From Rubripirellula sp. (GTDB lineage Bacteria > Planctomycetota > Planctomycetia > Pirellulales > Pirellulaceae): a DNA stretch of 32,057 bases. Below the pieces are notes generated by a model. It ran no database searches. It had not been told where the DNA came from and saw nothing but the letters and a program-made list of their open reading frames with translations. A program made the position numbers and the translations under genes. The stretch's first letter is position 1. Every line of letters starts with the position of its first letter. Positions 9,481 to 21,677 of the stretch are shown here, in pieces. Location: positions 1-32,057 of the forward strand of contig JAPKCI010000054.1 of the NCBI GenBank assembly GCA_028823035.1, read 5' to 3'.

Positions 9481-11046
9481 CTAATCGTCCTCCTGCAACC
9501 CAAGTGCAGCGTAGATATCCTTCATCTTATTGAACTTGTCACCCGATCCCGGGACCGCACGATCAATCGTGAGATTGGCCTGCCGTCCGGCCGCCGGCAA
9601 CGACGCCTTCACGGTGATCAATCCATCGGACTCATAGCGGAAAAGTACATCCACTGGTGTACCAAGAGGCAGATTCGCGGGAAGGTCATCAATGAGACAT
9701 TTTCCGATGCGAGCTGAACTTTTTCCCCGCTTATCACCCCCTTCCACCACCTCTACCGCGACACTTCTCTGATTTTCCCGAATTGTTTCAAACCTTGAAA
9801 CATTGGATGCAGGTAAAGAAGTGTTTCGTTTGATCATGACATGGTTACACCGCCGCTTCGTTTCTCGGTCATATCCCAAAACTCCGAGGTCATGAGCGTT
9901 AACATCTGTAACACGGATCTGAGTTTTTTTCTCGTCTTCCGATTCCACTTCGTTCAGCGAAGCGGCATAGATAGCCGCCCCATGAGCCACCGCTTCGTCA
10001 GCCGATACCGTGAACTCAGGTTCCTTGCCAGACTCACGTTGCAGCAGTTCCCTCACTTGGGGCATTCTTGTGGAGCCGCCTACCAGGATGATTCTGTCGA
10101 TAGCATCCCAGGCAATGGCATTCCCTTTTAATAAATGTCGCACTGTAAAACGCGTTCTATCAAGCAAGTGAGCGGATAGTTCTTCAAACTTCGTTCTTGT
10201 AATTTCTGTCCGCAATTGAAATCCGTCGAATGCGATCCGAACTTTGCACTGGTTGCGAGCGCTGAGAGCGTGTTTAATTTCCTCTGATTCACGCATCAGC
10301 ATGGACTGTCCAACGAGCGTCGTGGACGGACGACAGGCATGGCTCGCAGCGAATTGATCGTCCAGCCATGTGGCAAGGCACTTGTCCCAGTCCATGCCTC
10401 CCAATCTGGCATTACCGTCAGTTGCCTTCACGACAAACTGCGTTCCATCCAAGGCTACGACCGACACATCAAAGGTGCCCCCTCCCAAATCGTAAACCAA
10501 CACGGTGCACGGCTGTCCGCCTATCGGATCAACGCCGGATCCATACGGTTTTGATTCCAAACCGAATGCCAGTGCTGCTGCAGTTGGCTCATTGATAATG
10601 GCTTCCACTTTCAAACCAGCCAACAGTCCGGCATCGATCGTTGCACGTCGCTTGGGCTCATCAAAATATGCTGGAACTGAAATCACAGCCTTACGCAAAG
10701 TACAGCCAAGTCTCGCTTCGGCATCCAGTCGCAACCGTTCAAGGATCGCAGCCTGAATCAGTTCGGGACTATAGCACTGATCTCCGAACTTGATGGGGTA
10801 TTCGTCTTTTCCCATCTCTCGCTTGGCGAACCTGGCCACTTTCTCTGGCACTGTCGCGACTGCTTTTAGCGCTTCTTTTCCAACCGAAACACAATCTTCT
10901 TCGAACAACACAACCGACGGCGTGGTGAACTCGCCTTCCCGATTGCGAATTGTTTCCGGTTCGCCTTTCGCATTGACAAACGCAACGACGCTGCGGGTTG
11001 TCCCTAAGTCAATCCCGAGCACGGGTGGTGGGATGTGTTTCGACAA
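9481..11046 (-). CDS. Hsp70-family chaperone without the C-terminal lid
   Basis: This 521-aa protein has the complete Hsp70 ATPase signature: phosphate 1 GIDLGTTRS (11-19), INEPTAAALAFG (about 151-162), phosphate 2 VYDLGGGTFDVS (184-195) and the adenosine motif ILVGGSTRMPQV (310-321). A beta substrate-binding region follows (about 355-500). The chain stops about 100 residues short of ordinary DnaK (roughly 640 aa), so the alpha-helical lid and EEVD-like tail are missing. It begins with TTG, supported by GAAGGG 8 nt upstream. It is the second gene of a two-gene minus-strand operon, 35 nt after the J-like gene, suggesting that the two work together. It is probably a specialised paralogue rather than the housekeeping DnaK, since no grpE or dnaJ is nearby. 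ATP-dependent folding of a dedicated client is inferred. Confidence 0.92.
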   Translation of the reverse strand: MSKHIPPPVLGIDLGTTRSVVAFVNAKGEPETIRNREGEFTTPSVVLFEEDCVSVGKEALKAVATVPEKVARFAKREMGKDEYPIKFGDQCYSPELIQAAILERLRLDAEARLGCTLRKAVISVPAYFDEPKRRATIDAGLLAGLKVEAIINEPTAAALAFGLESKPYGSGVDPIGGQPCTVLVYDLGGGTFDVSVVALDGTQFVVKATDGNARLGGMDWDKCLATWLDDQFAASHACRPSTTLVGQSMLMRESEEIKHALSARNQCKVRIAFDGFQLRTEITRTKFEELSAHLLDRTRFTVRHLLKGNAIAWDAIDRIILVGGSTRMPQVRELLQRESGKEPEFTVSADEAVAHGAAIYAASLNEVESEDEKKTQIRVTDVNAHDLGVLGYDRETKRRCNHVMIKRNTSLPASNVSRFETIRENQRSVAVEVVEGGDKRGKSSARIGKCLIDDLPANLPLGTPVDVLFRYESDGLITVKASLPAAGRQANLTIDRAVPGSGDKFNKMKDIYAALGLQEDD

Positions 11047-11081: not shown

Positions 11082-13229
11082 CTACCAACTCAACGTGACT
11101 TCGATGCTGTGAAACGCTCCCGTATCTTTCATGTAAATCATGAACCAACACCGCCCATCCCAATTCTCAGGTGCCCATTTTTCAAGATCCAGTTCCTGGT
11201 GCCTGGACCACCCTAGTTCCACCACTTCACTGGGGCGACGAACAGCACCCCAGTTCGGCTGTTCAAAGGAGGAACCCTGATCTTGCGGAAACGACAGAAA
11301 CACTCGTTTCTCATATCCGCCCGGGGTATGGTAATCCACAAAGAATCCCATGCGGGACTTGGGCGTGATCGCGCCACCATAATCCTTTGTCTGCCGCATT
11401 GTAGCCCGGATGAGCGAGGCATTTTTCAATTCGAGCGAGGCAATGGCCTCTCCCCTACCATCAAGCCTTCGTCCCATTCCAAGTACAAACCTGTTTTCCT
11501 GACGCTCGACACGGTCGCTTTTTGAATCTTTCGATGTGAATTCCCGATAACCTATTTCCCTTGCCAACACGCGGTCACCCAGCTGATATCGGTGTTTGCG
11601 TTTGACCATTCTCTCGATGCCCTTGAGTCGCTTCTCAATGACATTGGCTTCTGAAGGGCTGCTTTCGGGAAGAATTTGTTGATACAGTTCCCTCGCATGA
11701 GTCGCGATTGCCATCTGCCGCAACCGAGACGTTTCGTTTGCCATCAACTGAAACCAGGCATCCGCCGCCTCGATGCTGTCGTTCGCAATGACCTCACGCG
11801 ACGCGGCCCCCGAATAGCCGCCCACGCCTTTTGACAACATCGCGAGACCGTCTTCCCATTGATGTCGGTAGAGGCACAAATAAGTGCCGATCCGACCGAG
11901 TGCTTCCGGATTCTCCGGTACCGTTTCCAGCAACTGTTCAGCTTTGGTTTTCTCAACAAACGCTTCTGAAATGTCCTCGATGTCCAAGCGAAGCTGGTCG
12001 ATCGTTTCGATGTCTTCCTGCGACAGTAATAATTTGGTTCGCGTTGAATCGCAAAGTGATTTTGCCGCATCGAACTCTTGATCTTCAGCACTTTCTTCTA
12101 CCACCTCGCAGATGGACATGAACAGCACGTCCAGACGCTCGGTGGGTGGCAATGCAATCGTTTGCTCGAGCGCATCAACTTTCAGTTGTCTTGCATCAAA
12201 GTCACTGAAGTTGGATTCGATGCTATCAAGCACACCGAAGGCCGAATCATAGTCTCCCTGCTGTAGCATCAATTGATGGGCAAGTTGCAAGTGTGCATAG
12301 CGGGCAACTAAATTGGTCTTCTCCTTCATCCCCATTCTGAAGATGGCTCTGGCAAACTCCAGCTTCCTGTCTTCTTCCTGAGCAACCTTCCATTCGTCCG
12401 TGGTTTGTTTCCGAATCCGGTCTATTTGCTCTGCGAGTTGCTCGTCGCTTGGACACGGTGCGAGCGCTGGAGCTAAGCCTTCGAATGCGGAGGATCCGGC
12501 AGTCCCTACCTCCACAGCTTCCTGAGGCATCTGGTCCTGCTCTGTAATTCGGCCTGCCTCATCATCTTTGATGTCTTGCTTGAGAACTGACCTGCGGTTT
12601 TCCATCCTGCGAGAACTCCGTTCCGCAGGTGGCTCGGATGCCGGTTTTTCAGGTTTTCGATACAATCCACCTAGGCTGGCAAAGTCAATAACAAGACGCC
12701 CTGTTGCAATAGCGAATCCAAGCAGCAGGAACACTATCAGCCCCGAATAGATAGACAATTTTATGGTGCGACCGCCCCAACTGACTCGTTTTGCTCTGTG
12801 ACGCGCCGAGTTCCCTGTCTGTGGTCTCGCCCGCAATCTAACTTGAGGTTGTTTTGAAGCTGCAACCGTTGCGGGGACCTGAACAACCGGGGGACCATTG
12901 GATCCAACATTCCCGGCAATGGACGGTCCTGCTTGAACTGGTTTCTTTGAGCCGTCCCGTTGGGCCTGAAGGGTCCGGTCGTATGCCTGCTTCTTGTCCG
13001 CATTGAGAAGCAGCAACCGCACCGCACAAATCTGATTCGACAGTTCCTCCGCTACCTCGCCATGTTCACCATTCACGAGGTCATGCAAGAACAACAGTTG
13101 CTTGTCAGCAGCCGCATCGATAACGTCAGCATCACTCTCAAACAGACTGATCCCAAGCAAGCGATAGTGATTTGGTGGCTGTTCCTCAGGGGGAATACCT
13201 AACCACTTGTGCAGATAGTCAAACACCAA
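11082..13229 (-). CDS. Membrane-anchored J-like protein lacking HPD
   Basis: The protein is about 715 aa. The N-terminus HKWLGIPPEEQPPNHYRLLG leads into a J-domain-like fold (about 20-90) ending in LLLNADKKQAYDRTL, the usual helix IV region. The HPD tripeptide that stimulates Hsp70 ATPase is absent; the only similar spot is LHD at 48-50. A basic stretch (RHRAKRVSWGGRTIK) precedes one membrane segment at about 158-181, so the J-like part should be cytoplasmic. The C-terminal 530 residues would then lie outside. They comprise a charged linker, a helical region (about 255-530) and a beta-rich end with VDYHTPGGYEKRVFLSF and WDGRCWFMIYM. The start is TTG-13229 or GTG-13226; no ATG is available. 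It lies directly upstream of the lidless Hsp70 gene. I recognise the J-like N-terminus as typical of planctomycetes; the C-terminal function is unknown. Confidence 0.88.
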   Translation of the reverse strand: MVFDYLHKWLGIPPEEQPPNHYRLLGISLFESDADVIDAAADKQLLFLHDLVNGEHGEVAEELSNQICAVRLLLLNADKKQAYDRTLQAQRDGSKKPVQAGPSIAGNVGSNGPPVVQVPATVAASKQPQVRLRARPQTGNSARHRAKRVSWGGRTIKLSIYSGLIVFLLLGFAIATGRLVIDFASLGGLYRKPEKPASEPPAERSSRRMENRRSVLKQDIKDDEAGRITEQDQMPQEAVEVGTAGSSAFEGLAPALAPCPSDEQLAEQIDRIRKQTTDEWKVAQEEDRKLEFARAIFRMGMKEKTNLVARYAHLQLAHQLMLQQGDYDSAFGVLDSIESNFSDFDARQLKVDALEQTIALPPTERLDVLFMSICEVVEESAEDQEFDAAKSLCDSTRTKLLLSQEDIETIDQLRLDIEDISEAFVEKTKAEQLLETVPENPEALGRIGTYLCLYRHQWEDGLAMLSKGVGGYSGAASREVIANDSIEAADAWFQLMANETSRLRQMAIATHARELYQQILPESSPSEANVIEKRLKGIERMVKRKHRYQLGDRVLAREIGYREFTSKDSKSDRVERQENRFVLGMGRRLDGRGEAIASLELKNASLIRATMRQTKDYGGAITPKSRMGFFVDYHTPGGYEKRVFLSFPQDQGSSFEQPNWGAVRRPSEVVELGWSRHQELDLEKWAPENWDGRCWFMIYMKDTGAFHSIEVTLSW

Positions 13230-15189: not shown

Positions 15190-17232
15190 TCAGACAGACC
15201 AGTGTGTCTCTTCCTCTTCGGGTTCTTCGTCGGCGTCGAGCGCAGCCAGGTGTTCAGCGCTGAAGAACATCTCAGCAATCATCCGGACGGGAACGAGTAA
15301 GGCGATGAAGATCGGGAAGAGGATGCCGATCGAACTGCTTTTTACGATCCATAAAATGGCCAGGCAGGCAACTTGTAATGCGGTGAAGGCATGAATCGTC
15401 CGGCTGGGAACCCTGCGAATGTAGTGTGTCACGGGATAAAGGTCGGGATCTCTCAGCCACAGACTCAGTCGCTCAAAAAACTGATTGCCCGACATCGAGA
15501 CAATTCCCATGAACAGAAACAAACCGTACAAAACGGCCATGGGGATTTCTTTCAACCATGGCAACAGCAGCAGTGAGAGGCCAATCAGCAAATGAATCGT
15601 CAGACCCGTCATGCGATTTTCGCGAACGTGGACAATCCGCTCATGTGTCTCACCGTTAGGCAGGGTAACACTGTCGATGGTCGCAAGGCTCCGAACGTGG
15701 TTCAGCGATCTAACCGTGGCGGCAACCAGCCATGGTAAACCGATCATCGAGCAGCAGGCGATCAGGATACCAACCACGCCCAGATCCAGATGGTAGGCTT
15801 CCCCTTTATGCAATCGATGGTCGGGGCTGTTGACAATGCGTGCGGTAATGTTTTGATCCAGAAAAATCAGAACAGTGACTAGCAATGCGGGACCGGCAGC
15901 TGCGAATTTCGCCCAGGTGGGAATGGCACTCAGGTCCACCAGCCAGCCACGTCCGGTTGTGGTGCCGAACTGATCTGGCGCTGGCAAAACATCCAGTTCG
16001 ACTTCGTTCAGCCAGACCGAAATGATGGTCATCGCGCCGATTGCCAGTGCGGGTCCGAAATCCGCCACGAATTCGCGAATTCGCGGACGCAGATAACTGC
16101 TGCGTCGGAATCGAGAAAGGCTGATGGCAATGTAAAACGTACCTAGCGCCAGTAGCAGCGACAACAATGCGGTGTCGTGGTGCTGTTTGACATCCGTATC
16201 GCGGAAAATCTTCACCAGCGACTTGATTGCTTCGTAAATGAAGATCACCGAGATCAGGGCGGAAAATATCTCGTCTGTAAAGCGGGTAAAGTATCTCATC
16301 AGGCAGCTGGCTTCAGTCACTGCCAAAATCAGGAGGAAGGCAGCAGACCAGATTCCTACCCACGCATACGACGCAAGGAAAGGAAGATTCATGTCACCGC
16401 ATAGACGGAATAGGATGGCGGTGAACACGAGCAGTGGACCGGTGCCGCCAAGGATGATTAGCGGTTGCCCTGACATCAGGGCAAAAACAACGCCGCAAAA
16501 GGCGGAGGCGGCAATCATTTCGACCGCCCCGATCTCTCCATTCGTTTCGATTGCCATCACACCGCCGAACGTGACCGCGGGTGCGAGGCAGGCAAAAAAC
16601 AGAAAGAGTGTCGAGCCGATGCACTTGGGGTGCAGCCCTTCGCGAAAATCGTCGACGTAGTGCGGCAGGCGTCTTGCGATGTCACATTTGATTCCTTGGA
16701 ACAGTCCGCCTTTGTAGGACAGCCCCTGAGTAAGTTCGGTTGAGCAGGGAACGGGATCTGGGACAGTGCGAGCCTCAAAATGCTGTAACGCTTCCTCAAG
16801 GGCCGTGATCGATTTGGCCGTGCCGGCTTCGTAGCGAAACTCGTCGTCTGACATCAGACGGGCGATACCGGCAATGGTGTCGAGGTGTTCTTCTGCAGCG
16901 CCGGTCGGGCCCAGCAGGAAGAGCATGAATTGCGTGGGGATGCCATCCGGTGCTCCCATGTTTACCGGATGGTCGAGCCGGACAAAAACAACCGTCTGTT
17001 CCTTGATGCCATCAACATACGCATGAGGAATGGCTACACCGTGCCCAATGGCCGTAGGCGCATGCCGTTCACGCAGCAGAAGAGAGTCGCAGACCTTGTC
17101 TGCTACGGATTCAGGCAGAAGGTTCCGTTCAACCATTGTGGCAATGGTCGTGCGTATTGCTGATTCGACATCAGTTGCAAGCAGGTCAAGAATCACTTGA
17201 CCCTGATGGATCGCATTTTTAAGTCGATGCAT
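15190..17232 (-). CDS. PTS EIIA domain fused to SLC4/band 3-type anion (bicarbonate) transporter
   Basis: From ATG-17232 (GAGG a few nt upstream) the product is 680 aa. An upstream TTG at 17274 would add only 14 unlikely residues. Residues of about 5 to 150 form a fructose/mannitol-type EIIA domain with the active-site motif GHGVAIPHA (H70 the expected phospho-histidine, H64 nearby), then FLLGPTGAAEEHLDTIAGIARLMSDDEFR-type helices. From about 174 the protein follows SLC4 exchangers: GGLFQGIKCDIARRLPHYV, FFACLAPAVTFGG (212-224), ALMSGQPLIILGGTGPLLVF (251-270), DEIFSALISVIFIYEAIKSL (320-339), DQNITARIV (459-467), HLDLGVVGI and GLPWLVAATVRSLNH (498-512). These match human band 3 positions that I know. 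Ten or more membrane segments are visible. It probably moves bicarbonate or chloride across the cytoplasmic membrane, with possible control by phosphorylation of the EIIA part (inference). No other PTS gene is nearby. Confidence 0.93.
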   Translation of the reverse strand: MHRLKNAIHQGQVILDLLATDVESAIRTTIATMVERNLLPESVADKVCDSLLLRERHAPTAIGHGVAIPHAYVDGIKEQTVVFVRLDHPVNMGAPDGIPTQFMLFLLGPTGAAEEHLDTIAGIARLMSDDEFRYEAGTAKSITALEEALQHFEARTVPDPVPCSTELTQGLSYKGGLFQGIKCDIARRLPHYVDDFREGLHPKCIGSTLFLFFACLAPAVTFGGVMAIETNGEIGAVEMIAASAFCGVVFALMSGQPLIILGGTGPLLVFTAILFRLCGDMNLPFLASYAWVGIWSAAFLLILAVTEASCLMRYFTRFTDEIFSALISVIFIYEAIKSLVKIFRDTDVKQHHDTALLSLLLALGTFYIAISLSRFRRSSYLRPRIREFVADFGPALAIGAMTIISVWLNEVELDVLPAPDQFGTTTGRGWLVDLSAIPTWAKFAAAGPALLVTVLIFLDQNITARIVNSPDHRLHKGEAYHLDLGVVGILIACCSMIGLPWLVAATVRSLNHVRSLATIDSVTLPNGETHERIVHVRENRMTGLTIHLLIGLSLLLLPWLKEIPMAVLYGLFLFMGIVSMSGNQFFERLSLWLRDPDLYPVTHYIRRVPSRTIHAFTALQVACLAILWIVKSSSIGILFPIFIALLVPVRMIAEMFFSAEHLAALDADEEPEEEETHWSV

Positions 17233-17260
17233 GTTGGCCTCAGGCTGGTTGGTCGTACAA

Positions 17261-17288
17261 CACGGATGGTACAACGTGGATGGTACAA
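17261..17288. repeat. 14-bp imperfect tandem duplication upstream of the EIIA-SLC4 gene
   Basis: cacggatggtacaa is followed by cgtggatggtacaa, with a partial third copy (ggtcgtacaa) on the left. It lies 29 nt upstream of the ATG at 17232, in the presumed leader of the transporter gene, and creates the spurious upstream TTG of the long frame. Confidence 0.8.
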
Positions 17289-20336: not shown

Positions 20337-21677
20337 TTAAACGGACAGGTTCAGTTGCAGCGGCAGTCCCAATAGGGATCGCGTGCCAACGCCCTCGCTC
20401 CATTGAATTTGACCCTCAGGCACTGCCAGCTCAAAATCTGGAAAACGTGCAAAGAACTGTTGAAATGCAGTTGTGGCTTCAGCCTTGGCCAGTCGCATGC
20501 CAAGGCATGTATGGATTCCGTTGCCGAAGGCAAGATGTTGGTTGGGACTGCGCGAGATGTCGAATGTTTCCGGGTTTGGAAACTGCTTTGGATCGGCGTT
20601 GGCGGCTGCCAGGAACGGCATGATGACTTCTCCGCGTGACATCGCTACGCCATGAAAACAGGTGTCGTTGGCGATATAACGCGGTTCCGTCGTCTGGACG
20701 GTTGAGTTGTATCGGAGCATCTCATTAATTGCTGTGTCGATTTTTGACCAGTCTTGTGTCAGTTGCTGTTTCTGGACCGGGTGTTGCAACAGAGACAACA
20801 GACCGGCTGCGATCAGATGCACGGTGGTTTCGTGGCCAGCCAACAGCAGCAGGAAGGCGGTGGCAAGCAGTTCTTCTTCATCCAACGTGCCTTCTTCTTG
20901 CTCTGCAGCTACCAAGGCCGAAATCATGCCGGGGCGCGGCCGGATTCGACACTCTGAAAACTGCTGACGGAAATAACGACTGATCTTCCAGATCGCGGGA
21001 AACGCTTTGAATAAATCCGTCGAGTTTTTGATGTTGGTAAAGCGGGCTGCCCAGATCATGATTTTCTTCCGATCACTTTCCGGCAGTCCCAGCAGTTCAG
21101 AGATGACCGACAGAGGAAAGGGGCGAGCAAAGTGCTTCACAAAGTCTACTTGTCCGCCTGCACGCGCGGCCTGTTCTTCCAGGACGTTGAGTTGCTGTTC
21201 AGCCAGTGTTGCTATTCGGGCTCGCATACATTCGATACTTTGTCGAAGGAACGCAGATTCGACGATCTTGCGAAGTCGCCGATGATCAGGCTCGTCCTTG
21301 CCCAACATGTTGGTGGTGATGGCTCGAATCGTTCGGGGCATCCACCAACGAAATCCGGCGATCCCACGTCGCCCGGCATTACCCGGGTTGGTGACAAATG
21401 TCTCTTTGTTCCTGAGTACCTCGCTGGTCGTTGCGTGATTGGTCGTGAGCCAAACGTTGCCAAGAAACGGCATGCGGGTGCGGATGACCGGACCCATGTC
21501 CCTGATCCGACTGATTGTCGGCAACGGATCACGTTTGAAGTTTGCGGACGTCAGGTCAAGCGAATGTGTTTCCACAGTGTTTCTATCTGGAATCTGTGAT
21601 GCCCGACCGATTTCCATGTTGCGGAAATCGACTTCATTCACCACGGTTTGTTTGTCGGCAGCGAACAGGTGCGTCAT
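20337..21677 (-). CDS. Cytochrome P450
   Basis: The protein is 446 aa from ATG-21677, or 426 aa from ATG-21617 (MEIGRAS). All P450 hallmarks are present: the I-helix AGHETT (280-285, oxygen activation), the K-helix EMLR (319-322, the ExxR motif), the PERF-like region, and the haem loop FGNGIHTCLG (384-393) with C391 as thiolate ligand. A soluble bacterial class I enzyme is likely because there is no membrane anchor. It should need a ferredoxin and reductase, neither of which is in the window. The substrate cannot be told from sequence. A 22-bp tandem duplication covers the first codons and leaves a second out-of-frame ATG upstream, so the start is uncertain. Neither ATG has a clear Shine-Dalgarno site. 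Confidence 0.95.
   Translation of the reverse strand: MTHLFAADKQTVVNEVDFRNMEIGRASQIPDRNTVETHSLDLTSANFKRDPLPTISRIRDMGPVIRTRMPFLGNVWLTTNHATTSEVLRNKETFVTNPGNAGRRGIAGFRWWMPRTIRAITTNMLGKDEPDHRRLRKIVESAFLRQSIECMRARIATLAEQQLNVLEEQAARAGGQVDFVKHFARPFPLSVISELLGLPESDRKKIMIWAARFTNIKNSTDLFKAFPAIWKISRYFRQQFSECRIRPRPGMISALVAAEQEEGTLDEEELLATAFLLLLAGHETTVHLIAAGLLSLLQHPVQKQQLTQDWSKIDTAINEMLRYNSTVQTTEPRYIANDTCFHGVAMSRGEVIMPFLAAANADPKQFPNPETFDISRSPNQHLAFGNGIHTCLGMRLAKAEATTAFQQFFARFPDFELAVPEGQIQWSEGVGTRSLLGLPLQLNLSV

Follow-up and report, generated by a model that had tools for sequence, protein, structure and literature searches.

An intact PTS EIIA domain fused to an SLC4-type transporter in planctomycetes, with sequence kinship to the N-terminal domains of animal SLC4 proteins

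The window analysed here is a 32,057-nucleotide stretch of Rubripirellula sp. DNA (assembly GCA_028823035.1, contig JAPKCI010000054.1, positions 1 to 32,057), whose minus strand carries a gene for a two-domain protein: an enzyme IIA (EIIA) domain of the phosphoenolpyruvate (PEP)-dependent phosphotransferase system (PTS), followed by the membrane domain of an SLC4 anion transporter. The features of the gene are these.

15190..17232, minus strand: EIIA-SLC4 fusion gene, 680 amino acids (aa) plus stop (open reading frame, motifs, and Pfam, NCBIfam and PDB searches)
16783..17208, minus strand: PTS EIIA domain of the fructose/mannitol/Ntr class, aa 9-150 (Pfam, profiles, predicted fold)
16705..16782, minus strand: linker from EIIA to membrane domain, about aa 151-176 (model of low confidence at aa 158-169)
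15226..16704, minus strand: SLC4 membrane domain, HCO3_cotransp (Pfam, structural alignment)
17023..17025, minus strand: codon of H70, predicted phosphoryl acceptor in GHGVAIPHA (His in 32/32 aligned rows)
16885..16887, minus strand: codon of H116, second conserved histidine (His in 32/32 aligned rows)
15856..15858, minus strand: codon of D459 in DQNIT (Asp in 20/32 aligned rows)
15709..15711, minus strand: codon of R508 in TVRS (Arg in 31/32 aligned rows)

The frame occupies exactly 15190..17232 and begins with ATG at 17230-17232; GAGG at 17238-17241 lies five bases before it (by eye), and an alternative in-frame TTG at 17274 would lengthen the protein by 14 aa. An earlier note on this DNA had described a 680-aa frame, strand unstated, with the motifs GHGVAIPHA (containing H70), LAPAVTFGG, GTGPLLVF, DQNIT, HLDL, GLPWLVAATVRS and FLLGP...LMSDDEFR, and translation of the minus strand returns all of them. 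Both Pfam families that it proposed are matched, PTS_EIIA_2 (PF00359) at aa 9-150 with an E-value of 3.9e-23 and HCO3_cotransp (PF00955) with 7e-182 (606.4 bits, cut-off 27). A third model, Band_3_cyto (PF07565), overlaps the second half of the EIIA domain, with its best stretch at aa 73-152 (1e-16; 61.9 bits, cut-off 34.3); among five other fused proteins it scores above the cut-off in three (65.1, 35.5 and 48.0) and below it in two (28.6 and 31.4). These three E-values and the intact 680-aa frame rule out chance or a frame artefact. The NCBIfam model TIGR00834, anion exchange protein, gives 589.4 bits, slightly below its curated cut-off of 599.45. The top PDB match is human AE2 (5e-124), followed by further animal SLC4 proteins and, lower, plant and yeast Bor1; the first domain matches PtsN (3.4e-19). 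The closest named relative is a protein of an uncultured Rhodopirellula, 81% identical.

The predicted structure bears out an EIIA fold for the first domain, which together with the profile match and the histidine places it in the PTS EIIA class, and the model of the membrane domain agrees with SLC4 structures. H70 and H116 are histidine in all 32 full-length aligned rows, comprising the window and 31 loci after truncated loci, duplicates and six genus-mates were left out. The membrane domain carries a mixed signature. Its R508 is AE2-like, this column being Arg in AE2 and Ile or Leu in the NBC/NDCBE chains compared; its D459 is NBC-like, with Asp in those chains and Glu in AE2. We take these columns to be E681/R730 of AE1 and D754 of NBCe1.

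A genome scan returned 22 loci, 20 of which encode the EIIA-SLC4 transporter; one of these (L023) ends at a contig edge and was left out of the alignment, and another of the 22 (L026) is an unfused EIIA. The remaining locus, L025:1-157, is an EIIA-SLC4-type fragment at a contig edge, joined to what seems to be the terminal part of an ammonium transporter, and a PII-like gene (by eye) comes next; the arrangement is probably chimeric, an artefact of assembly. Within a sample of 392 Planctomycetota genomes, host included, PF00955 matches at E <= 0.001 in 18 and above its cut-off in 14. In the host genus 11 of the 12 other genomes have an EIIA match inside an open frame of at least 681 aa, and the membrane domain is also present in all six of those 11 that were examined. 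The phylum of G394, a record titled Verrucomicrobia, yielded 0/240 genomes above the PF00955 cut-off and one weak match. Locus L016 is titled Alphaproteobacteria and probably belongs to a mislabelled assembly; the phylum sample around it gave the same matches as the Planctomycetota sample, and a search centred on it found no family members beyond that sample (less the host) and L016 itself.

The host has a second EIIA-SLC4 copy at L102:55-2109 (minus strand, contig C498), with Ser at the D459 column, and substrate or coupling may not be the same for both copies. Another genome, G395, has SLC4 matches at three places, two side by side on contig C165 (L021 and L058) and one on C30 (L012); the outer copy on C165 is a 474-aa open frame that lacks the N-terminal part and lies near the contig end. 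Spread by viruses or plasmids was considered and rejected: 47 pattern matches in viral_contigs included no relatives by tblastn, and of 111 matching plasmid records none exceeded 80% query coverage, the 20 listed matches covering 18-26% of the query, all inside aa 3-187.

The earlier note had asked whether the genome encodes enzyme I (EI) and HPr, and it encodes one of each, along with four PF00359 EIIA domains, of which two belong to SLC4 fusions, one is called PtsN-like and one lies behind a helix-turn-helix. On contig C54 an apparent ribosome hibernation factor frame (by eye), the PtsN-like EIIA, HPr and EI follow one another consecutively. HPr contains GLHARPA, and HPr and EI pass their NCBIfam cut-offs, which the PtsN-like EIIA misses. 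A search limited to PF02378 among the EIIC families found no such domain in the 99.58% complete host genome, and the relay therefore looks regulatory. A published survey has placed planctomycete EI in a regulatory group that occurs in organisms which, some Proteobacteria excepted, lack PTS transporters (PMC2405797). Among 16 further SLC4-bearing genomes, where the counts measure presence and not association with SLC4, HPr was found in 14/16 and EI in 15/16, and in the high-quality subset both in 7/7.

Two other EIIA arrangements were seen. At L101:5511-6218 (minus strand, contig C461) an HTH_17 DNA-binding domain is fused to an EIIA with the site GVALLHPR, possibly a PTS-linked regulator, and similar frames occur in the genus-mates L124, L128 and L130 (by eye). 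On a Rhodovastum plasmid an unfused EIIA (L137:268-747) adjoins a gene for monovalent cation/H+ antiporter subunit A, a possible further pairing of an EIIA with an ion transporter.

A profile built from 29 fused proteins aligns with AE2 (a mutant chain included), NBCe1, NBCn1 and NDCBE in four colinear stretches: about profile positions 8-66, 81-164, and then two membrane-domain stretches from about 168. The H70 stretch falls between the first two, where these animal chains have 46-216 other residues, and the H116 column is Tyr in all four. The isolated band 3 cytoplasmic domain matches the same profile at 1.6e-12 and 3.1e-12. A similarity across the junction between EIIA and membrane domain, which the earlier note had claimed for band 3, is recovered in the profile alignments as a shared stretch resembling TGR..GGL..DI.R..P...SDF.D.

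To test whether any EIIA would match band 3, we compared profiles built from EIIA domains only. The fused EIIA profile (31 rows) finds 13 SLC4 sequences at E <= 0.005, with 77.7 bits for NBCe1, 75.0 for AE2 and 60-61 for the isolated band 3 domain. A narrow unfused control, A3 (18 rows), finds no SLC4 chains up to an E-value of 10. Because A3 is narrow a diverse unfused control was built, A5, with 23 rows (13 planctomycete and 10 from plasmids of other bacteria); it gives AE2 22.2 bits (7e-4), NBCe1 16.4, AE3 13.9 and the band 3 domain about 12 (E near 1). On the animal chains in both lists the fused profile exceeds A5 by 45-61 bits, although PtsN itself gets its higher score from A5. Domain by domain, the Band_3_cyto model, used as given irrespective of the sequences behind it, matches 31/31 fused EIIA domains and 1/23 unfused ones (1.1e-5) at E <= 0.01. 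At the level of sequence the fused EIIA domain thus shows specific kinship with the animal SLC4 N-terminal domains.

Trees were built from the EIIA domain (58 rows, 158 columns), from its C-terminal half (87 columns) and from the membrane domain. In the EIIA-domain tree fused and animal rows are split from unfused ones (support 97/94), and the animal rows and 28 of the 31 fused rows stand together (99/98), L035, L032 and L037 excepted. The division into three groups was set before the tree was built, and the inner grouping was noticed in the tree itself; the animal stretches are those chosen by the fused profile, which may favour this outcome. The split of 31 fused rows from animals plus unfused rows is rejected by the approximately unbiased test (p 0.028 and 0.027, two runs of the same test on the same split and hence one result). 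In the C-half tree the animals and the 28 fused rows are still together (98/96). The three outlying proteins (family f23) are deep fused proteins with an EIIA that has neither the LMSD motif nor certain other features common to most other fused domains and the animal ones. The membrane-domain tree (39 rows of bacteria, animals and BOR, no outside root) recovers bacteria at 94/97, animals at 100/97 and BOR at 100/100; a constraint that places the three deep rows with BOR is not rejected (p 0.252). A fusion that bacteria had first is favoured by the EIIA-domain tree, resting on the three deep bacterial rows and a few eukaryotes. The earlier note had proposed that the fusion resembles the bacterial arrangement ancestral to the eukaryotic exchangers; the EIIA-domain tree favours this, and the C-half and membrane-domain trees leave the direction unsettled.

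Our preferred reading, to which we give a probability of about 0.65, is that this is a planctomycete SLC4-type anion or base transporter that carries a working EIIA as its cytoplasmic N-terminal domain and is switched by the PTS, and that animal SLC4 proteins inherited the same fusion. EI would take phosphate from PEP and hand it to HPr, which would transfer it to H70 of the EIIA domain; whether that domain is phosphorylated or bare would determine how fast the attached SLC4 domain transports, whichever the sign of this gating, and base or anion flux would track the PEP (energy and carbon/nitrogen) state of the cell. The earlier note had suggested bicarbonate/chloride transport under such gating, linked to carbon status; the relay may report carbon, nitrogen or energy status. 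In the animal line the exchangers would have inherited the two-domain fusion, an insert would have replaced the active-site stretch and the second histidine would have been lost, the dead EIIA becoming the band 3 cytoplasmic domain.

Several observations weigh against this reading. Since D459 is variable, substrate and coupling are not readable from D459 and R508, and the whole-length model is only middling (mean predicted local distance difference test score 76.6). The HPr and EI counts come only from SLC4-bearing genomes and give presence, not association; one of those genomes (G065, 84% complete) has neither HPr nor EI hits, and another (G396, quality unstated) has no HPr hit. A search for conserved neighbours (frames of at least 90 aa around 19 loci and the window) found one cluster common to three loci, at differing places, and none in more, and the gene neighbourhood offers no functional hint. 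In the best C-half tree fused and animal rows do not form one side (an arrangement not rejected there, p 0.255); nor do the 87 columns reject a tree with the animals outside every fused row (p 0.16). The membrane-domain tree, with bacteria as one side, is unrootable and silent on direction.

Three other explanations were weighed. The best of them, itself unlikely, is that the EIIA domain serves for structure or docking and, whether or not it is phosphorylated, leaves transport unaffected: the animal domain manages without the H70 site, and the neighbourhood gives no clue to function. Both histidines are invariant, however, while the domain around them varies (28-64% identity to the window), which argues for use of the site. 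Slightly less probable is that planctomycetes acquired the gene from a eukaryote in which the fusion arose. The patchy spread (14/392 Planctomycetota genomes and 0/240 in the phylum of G394 above the cut-off), a membrane domain close to that of animals (identical to AE2 at 40% of 481 aligned residues) and the unrooted membrane-domain tree would fit such a transfer; against it, all 32 bacterial rows keep both histidines, for which a donor without EI and HPr would presumably lack reason, and, with unfused EIIAs as the root, the fused group divides first within the bacteria. Least probable, and by our estimate improbable, is an independent addition of EIIA to a bacterial SLC4, the likeness to band 3 coming merely from a common EIIA fold, for although such folds have been noted in SLC4 N-terminal domains on structure (PMC4664831, PMC5608694), the EIIAs of the three deep rows branch outside the other fused ones and the best C-half tree does not unite fused and animal rows, it runs against the profile margin over the diverse control (which scores PtsN higher), the Band_3_cyto matches, the common domain order and junction motif, and the rejection of animals outside the fused rows on 158 columns (p about 0.027), albeit not on 87. 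The earlier note had named such an addition, a domain that does not fold like EIIA and a genome lacking EI and HPr as what would overturn its proposal, and these checks came out in its favour.

A PTS-switched planctomycete transporter inherited by animals would carry a broader implication, for and against which we see about equal odds: that the bicarbonate and anion exchangers of animals go back to a PTS-switched bacterial transporter, that their regulatory N-terminal domain is an EIIA inactivated when an insert took the place of its histidine site, and that the planctomycete family is the living form with its switch intact, a second transporter class under direct phosphohistidine control. This evolutionary reading should surprise specialists, and the family makes the origin of the medically important SLC4 N-terminal domain testable. 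The protein would also offer a bacterial model for the action of the N-terminal domain on SLC4 transport, in which the H70 phosphate would be a switch that an experimenter could turn on or off in vitro.

Elsewhere in the window, a 715-aa frame at 11082-13229 (minus strand) with no Pfam match at E <= 0.01 adjoins an HSP70-family gene (9481-11046, minus strand), and a cytochrome P450 gene lies at 20337-21677 (minus strand), with a DUF1501 gene and a PSCyt1/PSCyt2/PSD1 gene nearby.

Both domains are well known. To a likeness that is in print mainly as one of folds, the family adds kinship specific at the level of sequence, a shared domain order and an intact active site. Among the search results listed, no open paper on an EIIA-SLC4 fusion with an intact site was found by title or abstract opening; EIIA-bearing Slc4 proteins of bacteria may be mentioned in Parker and Boron 2013 and in a 2009 review. 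For fish slc4a11a a predicted PTS_EIIA_2 domain is mentioned in passing in one report (PMC7692064). The animal SLC4 proteins (AE1/band 3, AE2, AE3, NBCe1, NBCn1, NDCBE and SLC4A11) share the domain order of the planctomycete protein; in structural alignments their membrane domain is about 34-40% identical to it, and their N-terminal domain is alignable with the predicted EIIA domain end to end by fold, in keeping with the earlier expectation for band 3 and with the grouping in the EIIA-domain tree. They differ at the EIIA site, intact in the planctomycete protein and without either histidine in AE2, NBCe1, NBCn1 and NDCBE. The Nitrococcus mobilis Slc4-like protein, a bacterial Slc4 already on record (PMC8738779), and plant and fungal BOR have the SLC4 membrane domain in common with it; BOR1 begins at the membrane domain, unlike the EIIA-bearing planctomycete protein. 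PtsN (EIIANtr) is reported to act on K+ transporters through binding (PMC13104625); compared with it and other EIIAs of the fructose-mannitol class, the planctomycete domain is instead fused to SLC4, in a genome without PF02378 EIIC. The closest precedent for how the protein might work is LacS, a non-PTS lactose/galactose transporter bearing an EIIAGlc-like domain that is phosphorylated by HPr, which a 2023 review gives as the sole example of bacterial transporter control by direct phosphorylation (PMC10710835). LacS-type proteins are GPH-family transporters with an EIIAGlc-like domain, and the planctomycete protein is not one of them, belonging to another transporter family and carrying another class of EIIA; if its proposed switch is real, it would add to that one given case.
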